A DNA stretch of 64,000 nucleotides, taken from NCBI RefSeq assembly GCF_001913155.1, contig NZ_CP018760.1, positions 930,001 to 994,000 of the forward strand, read 5' to 3'. This document shows positions 7,692 through 37,840 of the stretch, piece after piece. The stretch is from Maribacter hydrothermalis. Its GTDB lineage: Bacteria; Bacteroidota; Bacteroidia; Flavobacteriales; Flavobacteriaceae. The notes under the pieces are model-generated. The model saw only the letters and a list, made by a program, of their open reading frames with translations. It searched no databases and was not told the origin of the DNA. The stretch's first letter is position 1, and each line of letters starts with the position of its first letter. A program made the position numbers and the translations under genes.

Positions 7692-8297
7692 ATGATTTTT
7701 TTCGGAACCGGCTCAGCCAATCTTGGCGCTGTTAAAACCAGAAATATTACCTGTCAGCATTGTAACAATCAAAACACAGTATTTATTAATATTTATAGAA
7801 GACACGCCCACATATTTTGGATACCAGTTTTTCCTATTAATAAAAGCGGTAGTTCTTATTGTACACATTGTAAAGAAGTATTATCTCCTAAGGAAATGCC
7901 CGAGGGACTTAAAATGCAATACAAAAACATAAAAGGAAATGCAAAAGGGCCTCTATGGCAGTTTTCCGGACTCGCAATTTTAGCATGCTTAATTGGTTTT
8001 GCAATTTTCTCTAGTGGTAAGGATAAAGAAAATACGCAGGTTTATTTATCTGATCCTGTAGTTGGTGATATATATGAGTACAAGGCAGATAATGGTAATT
8101 ACTCTACCATGAAACTTAAAAAAGTTACTGAAGATAGTTTGTACTTATCATTAAACGATTTTGAGATTTCAAAAAAATCTAGACTTTATAAGATAGATAA
8201 AGATGAAAACTACCCTGAAATTACCTATGGTTATTCTAAAACCGAAATGTTACAAATGCAGAAACAAGGGGTTATCTTAGATATCAATAGAGATTAA
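7692..8297 (+). CDS. Zinc-ribbon protein with one membrane segment
   Basis: 201 residues. The N-terminus begins MIFFGTGS and carries two Cys pairs, CQHC (residues 21-24) and CTHC (about residues 58-61), forming a zinc ribbon. A hydrophobic segment (about residues 94-110) follows, then a C-terminal domain of about 85 residues without a recognised family. The first 80 residues are clearly related to the stand-alone 80-residue protein at 51002-51244. Probably a membrane-anchored zinc-ribbon protein; function unknown. A hairpin terminator follows immediately. Confidence 0.75.
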   Translation: MIFFGTGSANLGAVKTRNITCQHCNNQNTVFINIYRRHAHIFWIPVFPINKSGSSYCTHCKEVLSPKEMPEGLKMQYKNIKGNAKGPLWQFSGLAILACLIGFAIFSSGKDKENTQVYLSDPVVGDIYEYKADNGNYSTMKLKKVTEDSLYLSLNDFEISKKSRLYKIDKDENYPEITYGYSKTEMLQMQKQGVILDINRD

Positions 8298-8440: not shown

Positions 8441-9310
8441 TTATTGAGGCAATGGAACAAATTCTGTTTCTCCAGGTACTTTTGGAAAACGTTGCGCTAT
8501 CCAATCTTTACGAGCTTTGTCAATAAGGGCTTTATCTGACGATACGAAGTTCCAATTTATTGTTCTTCCTTCTGGGAAAGGTGTTCCTCCAAAAATATAG
8601 ATGGTAGAGTTTGCTTCCATTTCAAAAGCACAAAGGGTAGCTTCTTTGGCTACTAATAATTGCTTTGGCTCATAGGTATGTCCTTCACTATACACCGCAC
8701 CTTCTAATATATAAAGACCGCTTTCGCCAAATAACGCTCCACCACAATCGACCACTTGTCTTTTACTACTATTTATTTCGATGTAAAACAAGTCACTATG
8801 AACAGGAACTGGCGATTCTTTGCCAAATGCTTTTCCTGCTATCAGTTTATAAATTAAACCATCTTCTTCCCAAGTTGGTAATTTATCTGCTTCGGTATGG
8901 TGAAAAGAAGGTTCCATTTGTTCCAGCTCTTTGGGTAAGGCAACCCAAATTTGTAATCCGTGAAGCGATTTTTTAGTTCCTCGTAGCCGCTCTGGTGTAC
9001 GTTCAGAATGTACTACGCCTTTTCCTGCGGTCATCCAGTTTACTGCGCCAGGATTAATTTCAATTTCCGTACCTATACTGTCCTTATGCACAATGCTCCC
9101 TTTAAAAAGAAAAGTCAATGTGGAAAGTCCGATGTGTGGATGTGGTGCAACATCAAGGTTTTCATCTTCATCCAATTCTGCTGGACCCATATGATCTATG
9201 AAAACAAAAGGACCAACCATTCTTTTCTTTCTAAAAGGTAAAAGTCGGCCTACTTGAAAGTTGCCAATATTGGCAGCTCTTTCTGGTATTATGGTACTTA
9301 TGTTTGACAT
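8441..9310 (-). CDS. Pirin family protein
   Basis: 289 residues, a full-length bicupin. The metal ligands of the N-terminal cupin are present: His57 and His59 in APHPHIGL, His101 and Glu103 in VVHSERTPE. Bacterial pirins variously act as quercetin dioxygenases or interact with central-metabolism enzymes; which applies is not visible. Convergent with the zinc-ribbon gene and divergent from the TMEM175-like gene, so it is likely a single-gene unit. Confidence 0.92.
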   Translation of the reverse strand: MSNISTIIPERAANIGNFQVGRLLPFRKKRMVGPFVFIDHMGPAELDEDENLDVAPHPHIGLSTLTFLFKGSIVHKDSIGTEIEINPGAVNWMTAGKGVVHSERTPERLRGTKKSLHGLQIWVALPKELEQMEPSFHHTEADKLPTWEEDGLIYKLIAGKAFGKESPVPVHSDLFYIEINSSKRQVVDCGGALFGESGLYILEGAVYSEGHTYEPKQLLVAKEATLCAFEMEANSTIYIFGGTPFPEGRTINWNFVSSDKALIDKARKDWIAQRFPKVPGETEFVPLPQ

Positions 9311-9382
9311 CTGTTGAATGTTTTAAAAATTATTTTATAACTTATAAAGTTAAAATTAAATTTCTCAATGAAAACCAAAGTT

Positions 9383-9390
9383 TATTTTTG
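9383..9390 (+). promoter_or_regulatory. Putative -7 element of a Bacteroidota promoter
   Basis: TATTTTTG matches TAnnTTTG exactly and lies 33 bases before the start of the TMEM175-like gene. A convincing -33 TTG at normal spacing is not obvious, so support is moderate. Confidence 0.4.
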
Positions 9391-9423
9391 TCCTTGTAAA
9401 ATAGTAAGACAACAAGACTACCT

Positions 9424-9993
9424 ATGAAGACAAACAGACTAGAAGCATTTAGTGACGGAGTTCTTGCCATCATAATTACTATTATGGTCTTAGAGCTTCA
9501 AGCTCCGGAAGAAGCCACTTTAAATGCTCTTCTTGAACGAGTTCCAGTGTTTATAAGTTATGTTTTTAGTTTTATATACTTGGGAATTTACTGGAATAAT
9601 CACCACCATTTATTTCAAATAACTCAAAAAGTAAACGGTAAGGTACTTTGGGTAAATCTACATCTCCTTTTTTGGCTATCACTAATTCCCTTTACCACGG
9701 CGTGGATAGGAAATAATTATGAGGCTATCTTGCCCGTAGTTGCATATGGTGTAGTATTGCTCCTGTGTGCTATTGCCTATTTTATCTTACAGAATGTTAT
9801 CATTAAGTCTCACGATATGGAATTTCCACTTCGCAAAGTGATAGGCTCAGATAGAAAGGGGAAAATTTCTATTGTATGTTATATTTTAGGAATTGGGTTT
9901 GCCCTTTTAAATACTTGGATTGCTATTGTTTTATACAGTGTTGTTGCAATAATGTGGCTTGTTCCAGATAAAAGGATTGAGAATAATTTATAA
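9424..9993 (+). CDS. TMEM175-like (DUF1211) potassium channel family membrane protein
   Basis: 189 residues with about six hydrophobic segments. The family hallmark FSDGV follows the N-terminal Arg-Leu-Glu-Ala at residues 9-13, and a conserved W-N-N-H-H-H stretch is present near residue 60. Bacterial members of this family form K+-selective channels as tetramers. Divergent from pirin; the AraC regulator follows 32 bases later and may be co-transcribed. Confidence 0.85.
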   Translation: MKTNRLEAFSDGVLAIIITIMVLELQAPEEATLNALLERVPVFISYVFSFIYLGIYWNNHHHLFQITQKVNGKVLWVNLHLLFWLSLIPFTTAWIGNNYEAILPVVAYGVVLLLCAIAYFILQNVIIKSHDMEFPLRKVIGSDRKGKISIVCYILGIGFALLNTWIAIVLYSVVAIMWLVPDKRIENNL

Positions 9994-10025
9994 TGTGTTT
10001 GAGCAAATAAATAATATAAGAATCA

Positions 10026-10901
10026 ATGAATCCCGTTAAAACGTATCAAAAAGTAAATGCCCAGCAAGAAAGTGCCACTTTTGCCATATCTCGTATGGAA
10101 GATATTTATGATAAACACAATGGGAAAGTAGATGAACCACATAGGCATAATTACTTTACAGTCTTAATTATTAAAAATGCATCCGGACATCATAAAATAG
10201 ATTTCAACAGCTATGAGCTTGGTGGTTATCAGGTATATTTCGTTGCGCCTGGACAAGTACATCAGGTTATAGAAACTGAAAAATCGTTTGGATATGTGAT
10301 GACATTTTCTAACCAATTTTTGGTAGAAAGTACTATTCCCTTATCTTTTATAGATAGTTTAAACCTTTTTCAAAATTATGGGCAAAGTCCGCCACTGTTG
10401 CCTAAAGAACAGCAATTTAGGACCATTGCACACTTTGCCAAAAATATCTTTGACCTATTTCATAGTGACGCTACTATGAAAAATTTGTCTATCGGTGCTT
10501 TCTTAAAATTGTTGCTTATAGAGTGCAATAATATTTGTTCTATCAATCCAATTGCATCGGAAATGGAAACTTCTGGAAACAATCTTATTCGAGATTTTAA
10601 GACGGTGGTAAATACCCATTACAGACAGGAACATTCTACAACATTTTATGCCGGCGAGCTTAATATTACTCCAGACCACCTTAACAGAACGGTAAAATCT
10701 AAAATAGGAAAAACGGCCAAGGATTATATACAGACCAGAATTATCACCGAAGCAAAAAGACTGCTCTATTTTACAGATGGGTCGGCCAAAGAAATTGCCT
10801 ACGAGCTGGGTTTTAACGAGCCCGCAAATTTTAGTGCATTCTTTAAAAAACACACAAAAATATCGCCTTCACATTTCAAAAAAAGTCAATTACAGGCTTA
10901 A
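10026..10901 (+). CDS. AraC family transcriptional regulator
   Basis: 291 residues. The N-terminal half is a cupin-like sensing domain (EPHRHNYFTVL, GYQVYFVAPGQVHQV). The C-terminal about 100 residues are the double helix-turn-helix: the first includes YAGELNITPDHLNRTVK, the second ends in IAYELGFNEPANFSAFFKKHTKISPSHFK, the classic AraC signature. It probably controls neighbouring pirin/YceI genes; this is inferred from position. Ligand unknown. Confidence 0.93.
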   Translation: MNPVKTYQKVNAQQESATFAISRMEDIYDKHNGKVDEPHRHNYFTVLIIKNASGHHKIDFNSYELGGYQVYFVAPGQVHQVIETEKSFGYVMTFSNQFLVESTIPLSFIDSLNLFQNYGQSPPLLPKEQQFRTIAHFAKNIFDLFHSDATMKNLSIGAFLKLLLIECNNICSINPIASEMETSGNNLIRDFKTVVNTHYRQEHSTTFYAGELNITPDHLNRTVKSKIGKTAKDYIQTRIITEAKRLLYFTDGSAKEIAYELGFNEPANFSAFFKKHTKISPSHFKKSQLQA

Positions 10902-10972
10902 AAATAGAGCCAATATCGGATTTTCATAAGTTTCTCTCATTTTTTCATATTCCACACACTATTAATGAGTTG

Positions 10973-31034: not shown

Positions 31035-31409
31035 CTACCTGCTGAAACTGCCTACTGAAGAAATCAACTCCTCCACAGTCTCCATAGCATTCAACTGATC
31101 CGTACTCACCAACACCTCTAAATCATGTTCCGTTTCTACTAGTATAATAGGATAGGTATACTTATGCACAAATTTGCCTTTATACGTTTTTTGAAACTCA
31201 TCTTTATGGTAGAATTCTAGCTCGTAGCCTTTGGCTAATAAGCTTTCCCTAAAGGTTTTCCATTGTTTGTTCTCGGTGAAATTGCCGAAGGTTAATGAGC
31301 AGAGTTTGCAGTTGTAGGTTGCGGGACTTACAATTTTATGGGCGAAATCTAGCATTTTACTGCTGGTGTCACTATTGGCATTATAGATAAATAAAATTTT
31401 CTTTGACAT
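31035..31409 (-). CDS. Small conserved protein, copy 1 of a duplicated pair
   Basis: About 124 residues from the preferred start MSKKILFIYNANSD; a longer form from 31445 adds 12 residues but would start inside the conserved upstream segment. Cys residues in ATYNCKLCSLTFGNF form a CxxC-like pair that could bind metal. The C-terminus includes YPIILVETEHDLEVLVST. I do not recognise a characterised family. It is highly similar to the protein at 32386-32766, in the same orientation, and the two flank a PhyH gene. Function unknown. Confidence 0.7.
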   Translation of the reverse strand: MSKKILFIYNANSDTSSKMLDFAHKIVSPATYNCKLCSLTFGNFTENKQWKTFRESLLAKGYELEFYHKDEFQKTYKGKFVHKYTYPIILVETEHDLEVLVSTDQLNAMETVEELISSVGSFSR

Positions 31410-31456
31410 CTCCCTTTGGTCGTGAAAAACAACCAAACTATACATAATTTTTTACC

Positions 31457-32385: not shown

Positions 32386-32766
32386 TCAATCGTTCCCAAT
32401 TAATATAACCAAAACACCTATCAACTCCGTTACATCCTCCATAGCATTCAACTGCCCCGTACTCACCAACACCTCTAAATCATGCGCTGTTTCTACTAGT
32501 ATAATAGGATAGGTAAATGTATGCCCAAATTTGCTTTTATACGTTTTCTGAAACTCATCTTTATGGTAGAATTCTAACTCGTAGCCTTTGACTAACAAGT
32601 TTTCTCTAAATGTTTTCCATTGGTTGTTCTCGGTGAAATTGCCGAAGGTTAATGAGCAAAGTGCGCAATCGTACGTAGCGGGACTTACAATTTTATGTGC
32701 GAAATCTAATAGTTTACTGCTGGTGTCGCTATTGGCATTATAGATAAATAGAATTTTCTTTGACAT
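32386..32766 (-). CDS. Small conserved protein, copy 2 of a duplicated pair
   Basis: About 126 residues from MSKKILFIYNANSD (a longer form would begin at 32802). It matches copy 1 at 31035-31409 over nearly the whole length; differences are scattered substitutions and a divergent C-terminal tail (ELIGVLVILIGND instead of ELISSVGSFSR). The Cys pair reads CALC. It is convergent with the PhyH gene, whose stop is 8 bases away. Function unknown. Confidence 0.7.
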   Translation of the reverse strand: MSKKILFIYNANSDTSSKLLDFAHKIVSPATYDCALCSLTFGNFTENNQWKTFRENLLVKGYELEFYHKDEFQKTYKSKFGHTFTYPIILVETAHDLEVLVSTGQLNAMEDVTELIGVLVILIGND

Positions 32767-32813
32767 AACCTTTTGGTCGTGAAAATATACCAGACTATAC
32801 ATAATTTTTGACC

Positions 32814-33744: not shown

Positions 33745-33843
33745 CTATGGTAATGTTAGCGTATTTTCAGAGTGTCGCTAAATCTTTGGGATTTAGATTT
33801 TGGACAAGAAAAAATAAAACTAAACAATAAACTTTAGCTTCTT

Positions 33844-33885
33844 GCGTAGACGGAAACGAAAAGTTTCCTTACCACCGAACTACGC
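33844..33885. other. Nested inverted repeat, possible structured RNA or DNA element
   Basis: An outer stem GCGTAG/CTACGC encloses a perfect inner hairpin GGAAAC-GAAAA-GTTTCC. It lies about 50 bases before the GHKL ATPase start, within a 237-base gene-free spacer that otherwise shows only a weak terminator and a poor promoter (TTTG 33897, TAACTTTA 33923). It does not fit tRNA or attC consensus. Confidence 0.5.
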
Positions 33886-33934
33886 TTAGCCCAGCCTTTG
33901 TAAGCAAGCGGTAGAAAAATTGTAACTTTAAAGA

Positions 33935-35968
33935 ATGAACAGAAAATTAACAACCAATTCAAGACTAGTAAACGAACTGTTTGCGAGTTACATAAGTACT
34001 TTTACAGCATTTTGCGAATTAATAAACAACTCTATTCAAGCAAAAAGTAAAAATATTTGGATTGATATTGATTATACACCTGAAGATGAAGTTCATCCTT
34101 TAATTATAAAAAAAATAACGATTAAAGATGATGGTGTCGGAGTTCACGTTACAGAAATAGATAAAAAATTACTTGATATTGGAACAGCAAATAAAGATGG
34201 AGGAAAAGGAATTGGAAGATTTGCATCGTTTCAAATTGGACAAAGCGTAGATATAGAAACCATTGCTTATTCTAACAAACAAAGCAATTTTTCCAAAATA
34301 CAAATTCCTTTATCCTTTGATAGTTTCGGGAAAAATATAAATGTTTCAGAAGTAAAAATTGACACTAAAGAAGAAATATTAACAGGAAAAAATCATACAC
34401 CTTATTACAAAGTAATTATTTCAAATCTTTACGATACAAATGTTACTGAAATCGAACCAAAGAAAAAAATAATAGACAAATTTTTAAGTTCAAATTTTGC
34501 TGACGCAATATTTGAACGCTATCCGCTTAAAATTTTTAATGAGGAGATAAAATTTCATATTAATGGAAAGAAAATAAATCCAAAAGATTTTGTTGTTAAT
34601 GAACCAATTAAAAAAGTAACAAAATTTGCGGATTCAAAAGGAAAAGAACACAAAGTGTTATTTGACTTTATGCAAATAAAAAAATACGAAAAAATTAAAG
34701 TTTTCTTAACTACTAGAAACGCTGGACTTAACACTATTGCTAAAGGATTTGAATATGATGCAAGTTGGTTGAGTCCAAAAATTGGTGGATGGTTTATTTA
34801 CATTACTTCACCAACGATTTCAGCAGATTTATATAGAAACATAGATTTAGATGATTTAGACGAAGATTGGAAAAAGTATAGAACTCTAATAAAGGATAAA
34901 TTAAACGATTTCTTTAAAGAAAGAAACATAGAATTCGATAACTTTTCAGATAAACTAAAAAGTGACGATTACTATCCTTACAAGGAAAAATCAAGTTCAA
35001 AATCAAAAATAATTTTATTTGATAAACTTGCATATTTAGTTGAGGACAAATATCACATCCTAAATGAAGAAAACAAATTAAGAGAAATTATCTATCCTCT
35101 AATTGATAGAACAATTTCGAACGGAGAATTGAATAAAATTCTAGGAAGTATTTTGAAGCTCAACAAAAAAATGACTTCCAAGTTTTCGGACTTACTTGAA
35201 AAAACTGATTTAGAAAATATCATTGAGTTTTCTGATAAAGTAGCTTCCAAGATTGAAGATATTGAATTTCTAGAAAAGTTAGTATATAGCGAAATTTCTA
35301 AAAATGTTAAGGAAAGAAAAGAATTACATAAGTTTTTGGAAAAAATGCTTTGGGTTTTTGGAGAAGAATATAATGAAACTACAAGATTGTTATCGGACAA
35401 AAACCTTGAAAACAACTTAACTCAATTGAGAGATGAATGTTTAAAATTCAAACCTTCCAAAACGAAGGACAATATTAATGAAAAAATTGAGAAATCTGTA
35501 AAATCAATAACAGATCTTTTTATGTATCATGAAAGAATATTGGATTACAAAAAAAGAGAAGTACTTATTGTCGAATTAAAAGCACCAAGAGTAAAAATTA
35601 GTCCAAAAGAAATTGGACAAGCAATGAAATACGCAAGACAGATTGAACAATTAAGTTCATTGAGTGACAACTTGAACTACAAAATCTTGCTTATAAGTAC
35701 AGATATTAATAAAGATGCTCAATTTGATATTTCTGGTCGTCCAAAGAATGAAGATAATCCTTATTTATATTTTAGAAATGAAGACAAAAATATTGAGGTT
35801 TGGATTATGAAGTGGAGTGATTTGATAGAAAATGTAAAACGAAGATTAAAATATATGTCGAACATTTTACAAACAAAAGATATTGACGTCCAAGAAAAAG
35901 CAAAACGGGATTTTGAGGAAATTGATTTCGGAAAAGTAAGTTCGACACTTAAAAAAGTAGCTGTATAG
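33935..35968 (+). CDS. GHKL (HSP90/MORC-like) ATPase with C-terminal nuclease-like domain
   Basis: 677 residues. The N-terminal Bergerat ATP site is complete: ELINNSIQA (Glu28, Asn32), DDGVGV (65-70) and the lid GGKGIGRFAS (89-98). A transducer-like beta domain with SWLSPKIGGWFIY follows, then a long helical stretch. Near the C-terminus, VLIVELKAPR (Glu547, Lys549) followed by EIGQAMKYARQ resembles the E-x-K core and following helix of PD-(D/E)XK nucleases. GHKL ATPases of this MORC-like kind occur in bacterial restriction-type conflict systems. The gene is AT-rich and stands 185 bases before a NERD-domain gene. ATPase is firm; nuclease and defence roles are inference. Confidence 0.82.
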   Translation: MNRKLTTNSRLVNELFASYISTFTAFCELINNSIQAKSKNIWIDIDYTPEDEVHPLIIKKITIKDDGVGVHVTEIDKKLLDIGTANKDGGKGIGRFASFQIGQSVDIETIAYSNKQSNFSKIQIPLSFDSFGKNINVSEVKIDTKEEILTGKNHTPYYKVIISNLYDTNVTEIEPKKKIIDKFLSSNFADAIFERYPLKIFNEEIKFHINGKKINPKDFVVNEPIKKVTKFADSKGKEHKVLFDFMQIKKYEKIKVFLTTRNAGLNTIAKGFEYDASWLSPKIGGWFIYITSPTISADLYRNIDLDDLDEDWKKYRTLIKDKLNDFFKERNIEFDNFSDKLKSDDYYPYKEKSSSKSKIILFDKLAYLVEDKYHILNEENKLREIIYPLIDRTISNGELNKILGSILKLNKKMTSKFSDLLEKTDLENIIEFSDKVASKIEDIEFLEKLVYSEISKNVKERKELHKFLEKMLWVFGEEYNETTRLLSDKNLENNLTQLRDECLKFKPSKTKDNINEKIEKSVKSITDLFMYHERILDYKKREVLIVELKAPRVKISPKEIGQAMKYARQIEQLSSLSDNLNYKILLISTDINKDAQFDISGRPKNEDNPYLYFRNEDKNIEVWIMKWSDLIENVKRRLKYMSNILQTKDIDVQEKAKRDFEEIDFGKVSSTLKKVAV

Positions 35969-36153
35969 AAAAGCCAGCTTTCAACAAAGACCTAAGCCAA
36001 GAAATAAATAAATTCTTCTTTAATTTAAGACAATACTATTCTAGGCTCATAGATTTTAAAAACAGTTTTTGTGAGCTTTTTTTAATTTCAATATAATCAC
36101 AAGGCAACTAATTAATTGCAAATACGTTATTGCTTATTTAAGAATTATCCTTA

Positions 36154-37203
36154 ATGGCAAGAATTTACAGAACCATAGAATCATTAAAATCCCTAAAATC
36201 CGAGTTAGAGAACAAAGGAATAACCAGGTTTAAATCTGTAAGAGAAATTAAAGACTTTTTAAAAAAAATTGATTCGGAAAAACTAACAGTTCTAAATGAC
36301 ACTAAAAACGAATTAGAGCAAGAATATCATAAAACCTGTATACGTCTTAAAGATAACACCCAACGAAAAGTTGAAATAAGTAACTTAGCGACAGAAAAAA
36401 TAGATAGGAAAATTAAAGAGTTACAATTGAAAATTGATGTAATTCACAAAAAGAACAGTCTTAATTTTTTAAATAAAATACTAGCAAGCATAAAGCTTTA
36501 TTATTTAAAAAAACAGTGCAAAGATTTTGAAGACAGAAAATTCAAATTACTTAATAAAGTTGTTCAACCAATATCTCAAAAAATTAAAATTGACCAGCAT
36601 TTTATAAAAGAATTCAAAACTGATAAGCAGTTATTAATTGAAAGACGAGCTAAACTTTCAATTTCAGAATTAGAATACACACGGGGTGTTTTAGAAGATT
36701 GTAAAAACCTAATTTCTGGAGCAATAGGAGAAAACTTAGTTGTAAAAGAAATCAAAAAACTATCCGACGATTTTATTTTAATCAATGATTTTAAATTAGA
36801 TTTTTCTCCACCAATTTTCTACAAACAAAAAAACGAGAGAATTTACTCCATACAAATTGACCATCTCTTAATTTCAAAAGCAGGGATTTTTATAATAGAA
36901 ACAAAAAATTGGAGTAAAAACTCTGTTAATTCTATTAGTTTGTGGTCACCCATTGAACAGATTAAAAGGTCTAATTTTGCTCTTTACAGATACATTTCAG
37001 AAAATATAACTTTACGTGATCATCATTGGGGAGAACAAAAAATCCCCATACGAAATCTTATTGTTATGATTAATAATAAGCCATCAGCTAAATTCAAGTA
37101 TGTAAGTATAAAATTATTGAAAGAATTGAATGATTACCTTACATATTTTGAACCTGTTTTAACCGAGAAACAATTGAATAGAATATTAACTAAATTGAAT
37201 TAA
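36154..37203 (+). CDS. NERD (nuclease-related) domain protein with N-terminal coiled coil
   Basis: 349 residues. Residues about 20-175 are Lys/Glu/Leu-rich and predicted coiled coil. The NERD domain follows: GAIGEN at 189-194, QIDHLLIS, and IIETKNW with Glu249 and Lys251, giving the D...ExK arrangement of the PD-(D/E)XK-related fold. No helicase or kinase domain is attached. It lies between the GHKL ATPase and a DUF2750 gene on the same strand. DNA or RNA processing is inferred from the fold; substrate unknown. Confidence 0.82.
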   Translation: MARIYRTIESLKSLKSELENKGITRFKSVREIKDFLKKIDSEKLTVLNDTKNELEQEYHKTCIRLKDNTQRKVEISNLATEKIDRKIKELQLKIDVIHKKNSLNFLNKILASIKLYYLKKQCKDFEDRKFKLLNKVVQPISQKIKIDQHFIKEFKTDKQLLIERRAKLSISELEYTRGVLEDCKNLISGAIGENLVVKEIKKLSDDFILINDFKLDFSPPIFYKQKNERIYSIQIDHLLISKAGIFIIETKNWSKNSVNSISLWSPIEQIKRSNFALYRYISENITLRDHHWGEQKIPIRNLIVMINNKPSAKFKYVSIKLLKELNDYLTYFEPVLTEKQLNRILTKLN

Positions 37204-37231
37204 TTAAAAACTCATACCACAAAAACAAAAC

Positions 37232-37690
37232 ATGGAACAACAAGGCTCCGATATCATTGAAAACAGATACAAGAAATTTATAAAAACGGTTTGCAAAACA
37301 GACATTGTTTATGCGCTTCAAAATCGTGATGGTTTTGCTACCTCAGCTTCTGTACAGTACGATGATGAACATGATAGACCTGTTGGTGTACTTTGCTTTT
37401 GGGCAGAAAGTGGCCGAGCAAAATCTTGCACCATAAACCATTGGGCCAACTACCAGCTTACTCAAATTCCATTAACCGACTTTATAGAAAATTGGGGCGT
37501 AGGCATGGAAAATGACGGAATCCTAGCTGGTATTGCGTTTGACCAAAATATGTTCGGTTATGAAGCAAAACCTTTAGATTTAATTCTTGATTTAGTAGCT
37601 GAAATAAAAGCGACCAATAAAACTTTACCTCTTCAAAAATTCGAAAATATTGCTGATTTAGAAAAACAGGCTAAAGAGGCGAATGGGTAA
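37232..37690 (+). CDS. DUF2750 domain-containing protein
   Basis: 152 residues matching the DUF2750 pattern: NRYKKFIKTVCKTDIVYALQN at the start, FWAESGRAKSC, DFIENWGVGMENDGILAGI and the C-terminal EAKPLDLILDLVAE. Members are small cytosolic proteins of unknown function often found as scattered accessory genes. It begins 28 bases after the NERD gene and could share its transcript. Confidence 0.8.
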   Translation: MEQQGSDIIENRYKKFIKTVCKTDIVYALQNRDGFATSASVQYDDEHDRPVGVLCFWAESGRAKSCTINHWANYQLTQIPLTDFIENWGVGMENDGILAGIAFDQNMFGYEAKPLDLILDLVAEIKATNKTLPLQKFENIADLEKQAKEANG

Positions 37691-37840
37691 AATCTTATTA
37701 AATAATAATTTCTACTTTGTCTGAGGCGATAAAACTTTTGGACTCTTAAAACAACTGGCAACGAAAGTTAACGTATAAACCAGGCTTTGATTTTATTGAG
37801 AAAAGTTTTATAATTAATTAATAACATTTAATTAGAATAC

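Follow-up and report, generated by a model that had tools for sequence, protein, structure and literature searches.

A probable GHKL ATPase–nuclease gene of the paraMORC3 and GHKL-Shedu kind in a variable interval of the Maribacter hydrothermalis genome

Two described groups of proteins come closest to the gene considered here. Members of the paraMORC3 family combine a GHKL ATPase domain, an S5 domain and a C-terminal RecB-like nuclease domain of the RE fold with the residues E-D-ExK. The family ranges over proteobacteria and Bacteroidetes, a subset of its members are standalone genes, and the description used here gives no experiment (Iyer, Abhiman and Aravind 2008, PMC2292703). VcSduA is a Shedu protein with an N-terminal GHKL ATPase that protects both E. 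coli and its own host against phage (Adams et al. 2025, PMC12137116). According to the parts of that paper used here, the variants E27A and K557A lose protection, i.e. ATPase and nuclease residues are both needed, the growth curves fit direct restriction with cells kept alive, and the authors tie VcSduA to paraMORC3 as well as to Shedu type I-D (PMC12137116). For EcSduA, DNA-end sensing is reported in the portion of a review consulted here (PMC12904381).

The window is a stretch of 64,000 nucleotides of the M. hydrothermalis genome (NZ_CP018760.1, positions 930,001 to 994,000), and coordinates without a locus label refer to it unless stated otherwise. The list of open reading frames contains both genes described in the original prediction, denoted A and B in the following, on the plus strand. 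The features of gene A are:

33935..35968, plus strand: gene A, probable GHKL ATPase fused to a PD-(D/E)XK nuclease, paraMORC3 / GHKL-Shedu-like (open reading frame, Pfam, alignments of 26 and 38 members, tree)
33995..34360, plus strand: HATPase_c_3 domain of gene A, residues 21-142, with E28, N32, D65, G67 and G90/G92/G94 (Pfam and residue invariance)
35261..35839, plus strand: predicted C-terminal nuclease domain of gene A, residues 443-635, with E469, W473, E477, D527, E547-L-K549 and Q562 (hhalign and residue invariance)
33897..33930, plus strand: possible promoter of gene A, TTTG, 22 bases and TAACTTTA, ending four bases before the ATG (read from the sequence)

Gene A encodes 677 amino acids from an ATG. 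The start first assigned to it, 33844, lies 91 bases upstream of this ATG and out of the frame of gene A. The same start methionine is found in 21 of the 25 aligned relatives; three are longer and one is cut. The candidate promoter was recognised by what we take to be the promoter consensus of Bacteroidota.

The ATP-site motifs of gene A are ELINNS (residues 28-33), DDGVGV (65-70) and GGKGIGRF (89-96). Pfam places HATPase_c_3 above its cut-off (E = 2e-15) and HATPase_c below it (E = 0.0015). In an alignment of gene A and 37 relatives, down to 37% identity, the residues E28, N32, D65, G67, G90, G92, G94, E469, W473 and E477 are invariant in all 38 sequences, likewise D527, E542, E547, K549 and Q562. 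With 15 motif residues invariant in 38 of 38 sequences, the motifs are not due to chance. The complete Bergerat ATP site read earlier from the letters of the sequence is hence corroborated by domain and alignment, and the protein has the N-terminal GHKL domain with intact ATP motifs that is found in paraMORC3. The best structure matches of the full model are the ATPases of MORC2, TRAP1 and MORC3 (E between 1e-10 and 1e-9). The matches to MORC2 and MORC3 span 389-514 alignment columns, more than the GHKL domain by itself would fill, with an rmsd of 7.5-9.9 and a TM-score by target of 0.37-0.48; TRAP1/Hsp90 match as well. The model thereby leans towards an S5 (transducer) domain following the GHKL domain.

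The C-terminal motifs are VELK (residues 546-549) and EIGQAMKYA (559-567). Here Pfam finds HSDR_N_2 at residues 521-589, below its cut-off (E = 0.002). In a profile comparison (hhalign), the family of gene A matches ten Shedu proteins with a probability of 90.9 (E = 1.1e-6, 153 columns), and the NERD family, used as a negative control, reaches a probability of 0.5. The alignment to the Shedu profile has W, E-x-K and Q in register, with D displaced by a gap. By this comparison the nuclease core is homologous to that of Shedu nucleases. The arrangement E-D-ExK of the C-terminal RE-fold domain of paraMORC3 is recovered in the invariant residues E469/E477, D527 and E547-x-K549, with a fold that is weakly modelled. 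With a pLDDT of 61, the model of the C-terminus is poor, and it has no Foldseek match at 0.001; weak structural matches include the B. cereus Shedu nuclease, FokI, Cap4 and MspJI. The PD-(D/E)XK segment suspected in this part of the protein is supported by the profile match to Shedu nucleases and by the invariant residues. Judged from its sequence, gene A likely encodes a GHKL ATPase fused to a PD-(D/E)XK nuclease.

The system had been thought not to be one of those commonly named. The architecture of gene A, as far as the published descriptions go, is that of paraMORC3 (PMC2292703) and of VcSduA (PMC12137116), and gene A adds a member to an already known kind of defence gene. The comparison with paraMORC3, made by description and not member by member, revealed no difference (PMC2292703). 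Like VcSduA, as described in the parts of the paper used here, gene A is a single gene that combines an N-terminal GHKL ATPase with a C-terminal PD-(D/E)XK nuclease. Residues E27 and K557 of VcSduA, 530 apart, correspond by motif and order, not by alignment, to E28 and K549 of gene A, 521 apart. VcSduA is the product of a V. cholerae island gene, whereas gene A belongs to a mostly Bacteroidota group. Canonical Shedu proteins (SduA, DUF4263) share with gene A a nuclease core consisting of a helix ending in W, followed by D, E-x-K and Q; unlike gene A, those compared have 336-461 amino acids and other N-terminal parts. A search of the genome with PF14082 at E 0.001 did not match gene A, only another locus at genome position 2115973-2116425, and no PADLOC model, SduA models included, matches gene A at E 1. 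PF14082 is also absent from the precomputed domains of relatives of gene A among the 120 listed. Since there is no PF14082 match above the cut-off, gene A is not filed as Shedu by this model. The MzaB protein of the MZA system does not correspond to gene A, which scores 27.4 bits against a cut-off of 850 for NF041932, over residues 21-226 only.

We note two further genes of this relationship. The locus at 2115973-2116425 (L056) is a second, canonical-looking Shedu gene of the same genome (PF14082, 39.3 bits, cut-off 27). A GHKL protein of 587 amino acids (L057:123-1886) represents a second, distant GHKL-Shedu type: its C-terminus passes the PF14082 cut-off over part of the model, and it aligns to residues 380-572 of the family of gene A (hhalign probability 97.7).

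When one genome of each bacterial and archaeal species was scanned, 35 loci with relatives of gene A were obtained. These comprise 32 that match all or nearly all of the protein, one cut by a contig end, and two that match part of the ATPase domain only. Gene A is present in one of 36 genomes of the genus, 3 of 299 of the family and one of 345 of the phylum, at presence thresholds of our choice (1e-100 for A, 1e-60 for B); in the larger samples the best few candidates per genome were scored, and remote relatives are not in the counts. Two of the three family members are only 44-46% identical to gene A. A near relative, 88% identical, occurs in Belliella, a member of another class. A tree of 63 proteins, which carries a long-branch warning, unites the 24 proteobacterial-type rows with a support of 98/99 and separates them from the rows of the window; two distant Bacteroidota rows (L002, L003) lie outside the window's set of 34. 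Gene A shares 24-26% identity with three proteobacterial-type relatives, and its ATP lid is 12-13 residues shorter than theirs. Gene A is part of a divergent, mostly Bacteroidota group. Relatives are also found in a Melainabacteria MAG and in spirochaetes, so the group is not strictly Bacteroidota.

The surroundings of gene A relatives were compared between a near set (107 genes within two positions of A, 29 loci) and a far set (107 of the 111 genes lying over 6 kb from A, same 29 loci). At E 1e-10, 377 PADLOC models are matched in the near set versus 18 in the far set; the models are redundant, and these are counts of models, not genes. For A on its own, the enrichment near defence genes called for in the original prediction is thus seen. 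The 25 models listed for the near set include type I and II restriction enzymes, type II methylases and AbiLi, as well as HerA, helicase with DUF2290, and RT-protease, with two to four members each; no model has more than two members in the far set. The 25 Pfam families listed, of 149 in the near set, include restriction, AAA_15/21, caspase and Schlafen domains; domains that belong to ordinary genes occur there too, namely TonB-receptor and carboxypeptidase-like ones. Of the five proteins scanned in the stretch around gene A itself (A and B included), AAA_33 alone has PADLOC matches at E 1, and these are weak; the other four have none.

Several individual neighbourhoods were recorded. At L033:5135-7892 and L035:12055-14812, two genes directly follow the A relative (0 and 6 positions past its end); those of L033 encode a UvrD-type helicase and a DUF2290 protein, and in the near set the PADLOC Helicase and DUF2290 models have two members each. 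We take the L033 pair to have the make-up of the known helicase-DUF2290 defence system. In spirochaetes, similar genes begin 10-11 positions after the A relative (L043:12041-12910 and L044 from 12042), the one in L043 encoding an N6/N4 DNA methylase. Distant relatives of gene A occur in 46 of 72,556 plasmid records and 2 of 50,697 phage records, and three of these loci were read. The Psychrobacter plasmid copy adjoins LlaMI and Dcm, with Drt2 nearby; the Phaeobacter plasmid copy overlaps a gene for a type ISP enzyme; and in the Pasteurella phage record the relative is situated among tail genes.

Such neighbours suggest a different role, in which gene A would serve as accessory ATPase-nuclease to a restriction-modification system whose genes lie elsewhere in the genome. 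The published account of paraMORCs, in the part used here, places them mainly in restriction-modification operons and allows for unlinked partners (Iyer 2008, PMC2292703). The type ISP enzyme, LlaMI with Dcm and the spirochaete methylase next to relatives agree with such a role, as do BsuBI/PstI enzymes (2 of 107 near neighbours). Because some relatives adjoin restriction-modification genes, acting alone is not universal. Against the accessory role stands that the neighbours of A relatives change from locus to locus, that none of the seven other proteins scanned around gene A has a restriction-modification domain (Pfam), and that VcSduA, in the account used here, protects E. coli by itself (PMC12137116). 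We therefore consider an accessory role of this kind unlikely.

Comparison with genomes of the same genus places gene A in a variable interval, with the following features:

33900..35982, plus strand: swapped stretch, gene A here and a ybjQ-like gene in genome G443 of the same genus (collinear flanks)
36154..37203, plus strand: gene B, 349 amino acids, C-terminal NERD domain, N-terminal part read as coiled coil in the original prediction (Pfam, alignment)
37232..37690, plus strand: DUF2750 gene, conserved marker beside gene B on the right side of the interval (Pfam, E = 4.7e-24)

The flanks of the swapped stretch are collinear with G443 (locus L108): 33752-33899 with 8036-8182 (79%) and 35983-37692 with 9249-10963 (82%). 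The right-hand block contains gene B and the DUF2750 gene in both genomes, and the slot of gene A is occupied by the ybjQ-like gene (YbjQ_1, E = 4.8e-26). The left flank is a dispersed repeat, hence the left boundary of the swap is less sure than the right one. Both flanks, 33752-33899 and 35983-36084, are dispersed intergenic repeats; counting the copy itself, the genome contains 10 matches to the first and 8 to the second, and the other copies are 70-89% alike. Three copies of the 35983-36084 repeat abut a gene of 335 amino acids, as if the repeat were its target; the gene is presumably an IS110-type transposase.

Thirteen stretches from 12 genomes of the genus were read (L090-L100, L108, L109). 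They carry differing cargo, and the DUF2750 gene is found in 11 of them. Ten cargo proteins picked by eye were searched with PADLOC, eight taken from seven same-genus stretches and the other two from L067, where a distant relative of B lies in a genome outside the genus. Within the genus, the matches are GajA and GajB (Gabija) in L093, SduA in L095, PDC-S21 in L096 and PDC-M36A in L092, together with weak matches to type IV restriction in L094 and a partial PbeA in L099; the cargo picked from L100 has no PADLOC match. The pair in L067 is also Gabija. We further note that in the window two near-identical minus-strand genes (31035-31445 and 32386-32802, 300 bases at 89%) flank a PhyH-like gene, with copies in 11 of the 13 same-genus stretches, and that in G440 gene B has next to it a PLD-like gene and one that combines ATP-dependent ligase and WGR domains (L109:6983-10119).

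Gene B contains a NERD domain (PF08378, residues 188-305, E = 8e-15). An alignment of 26 sequences shows D236, K251 and Q269 unchanged in every one of them and E249 retained in at least 90%, and the active site looks intact. The NERD domain with D and E-x-K stated at the outset is thus confirmed, together with Q. Gene B is an ordinary NERD-domain protein of Flavobacteriaceae: the 119 others listed are 64-82% identical to it and mostly 348-349 amino acids long. It occurs in 4 of 36 genus, 9 of 299 family and 5 of 345 phylum genomes. All four genus genomes carry it in this interval, the other three without gene A: besides G443, it follows the DUF2750 gene in G425 (L092) and lies about 4 kb from it in G440 (L109). 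Visual inspection of those B loci that were read showed no constant neighbour of gene B.

The original prediction had tentatively combined both genes into one module, an ATP-gated system of two nucleases. They lie on the same strand, separated by 185 bases, and both are AT-rich, as had been stated, with a GC content of 27.3% (A) and 26.6% (B) versus 34.8% in the window. The genes to the left are about equally AT-rich (lipoprotein-like gene 28.3%, PhyH gene 26.5% GC) and those to the right are not (DUF2750 37.5%, AAA_33 37.2%), hence AT-richness marks the variable stretch and not a bond between A and B. Gene B is absent from all 35 A loci (fetched stretches of up to 10 kb a side, often less; open frames of at least 80 amino acids), and it is likewise not found near the two family relatives that are distant from A. 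Conversely, twelve other places with gene B were found, and gene A is absent from the 11 read with their surroundings (L060-L067, L092, L108, L109). In each sample (36 genus, 299 family, 345 phylum genomes) both genes occur together only in the genome studied here. This lack of co-occurrence rules out the pair as a conserved unit, and with gene B keeping its place in G443 next to the ybjQ-like gene, a joint two-nuclease system is highly improbable. The adjacency of A and B is a product of the accessory hotspot. Gene B looks like a separate, independent resident of the same hotspot, and our guess would be a standalone accessory nuclease.

A host ATPase of DNA repair or chromosome maintenance, MutL- or MORC-like and unrelated to defence, would share the plan of GHKL, transducer and nuclease and would suit a model whose best matches include MORC structures, but the sparse presence in genus and family, the swapped stretch and the relative in Belliella together give the pattern of an accessory gene and make such a role very doubtful.

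Gene A is thus most probably a self-contained anti-phage ATP-gated nuclease of the paraMORC3 / VcSduA kind, present as a single-gene insert in an accessory and defence hotspot that extends over the genus. The observed basis consists of the domains, the invariant residues, the profile kinship to Shedu, the patchy range, the swap and the defence-rich surroundings of relatives. In the proposed mechanism, the N-terminal GHKL module would bind ATP and dimerise, and the dimer would close a MORC-like clamp (GHKL and transducer) on invader DNA or on a phage protein-DNA complex. Closure would then license the PD-(D/E)XK domain (D527, E547-x-K549, Q562) to cut the invader DNA, sparing the cell. That the clamp closes on DNA, and what may trigger it, we purely infer. 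By analogy with VcSduA, gene A would need both ATPase and nuclease and would stop the phage without killing the cell.

There is a small chance that the mostly Bacteroidota group forms a subtype of its own. Its members would be portable ATP-gated nucleases with a short ATP lid, acting alone in some genomes and elsewhere as the cutting partner of an adjoining methylase or restriction enzyme (an N6/N4 methylase or an enzyme of the BsuBI/PstI type; type ISP in the proteobacterial branch), and they would recognise the methylation state and not DNA ends. The case of A and B illustrates that neighbouring genes of an accessory hotspot can give the false impression of a two-gene system. Gene A draws attention to a widespread branch of GHKL-Shedu nucleases, most of it in Bacteroidota, and since it is called neither by PADLOC-DB 2.0 nor by Pfam PF14082, GHKL-Shedu defence may be under-counted in that branch.
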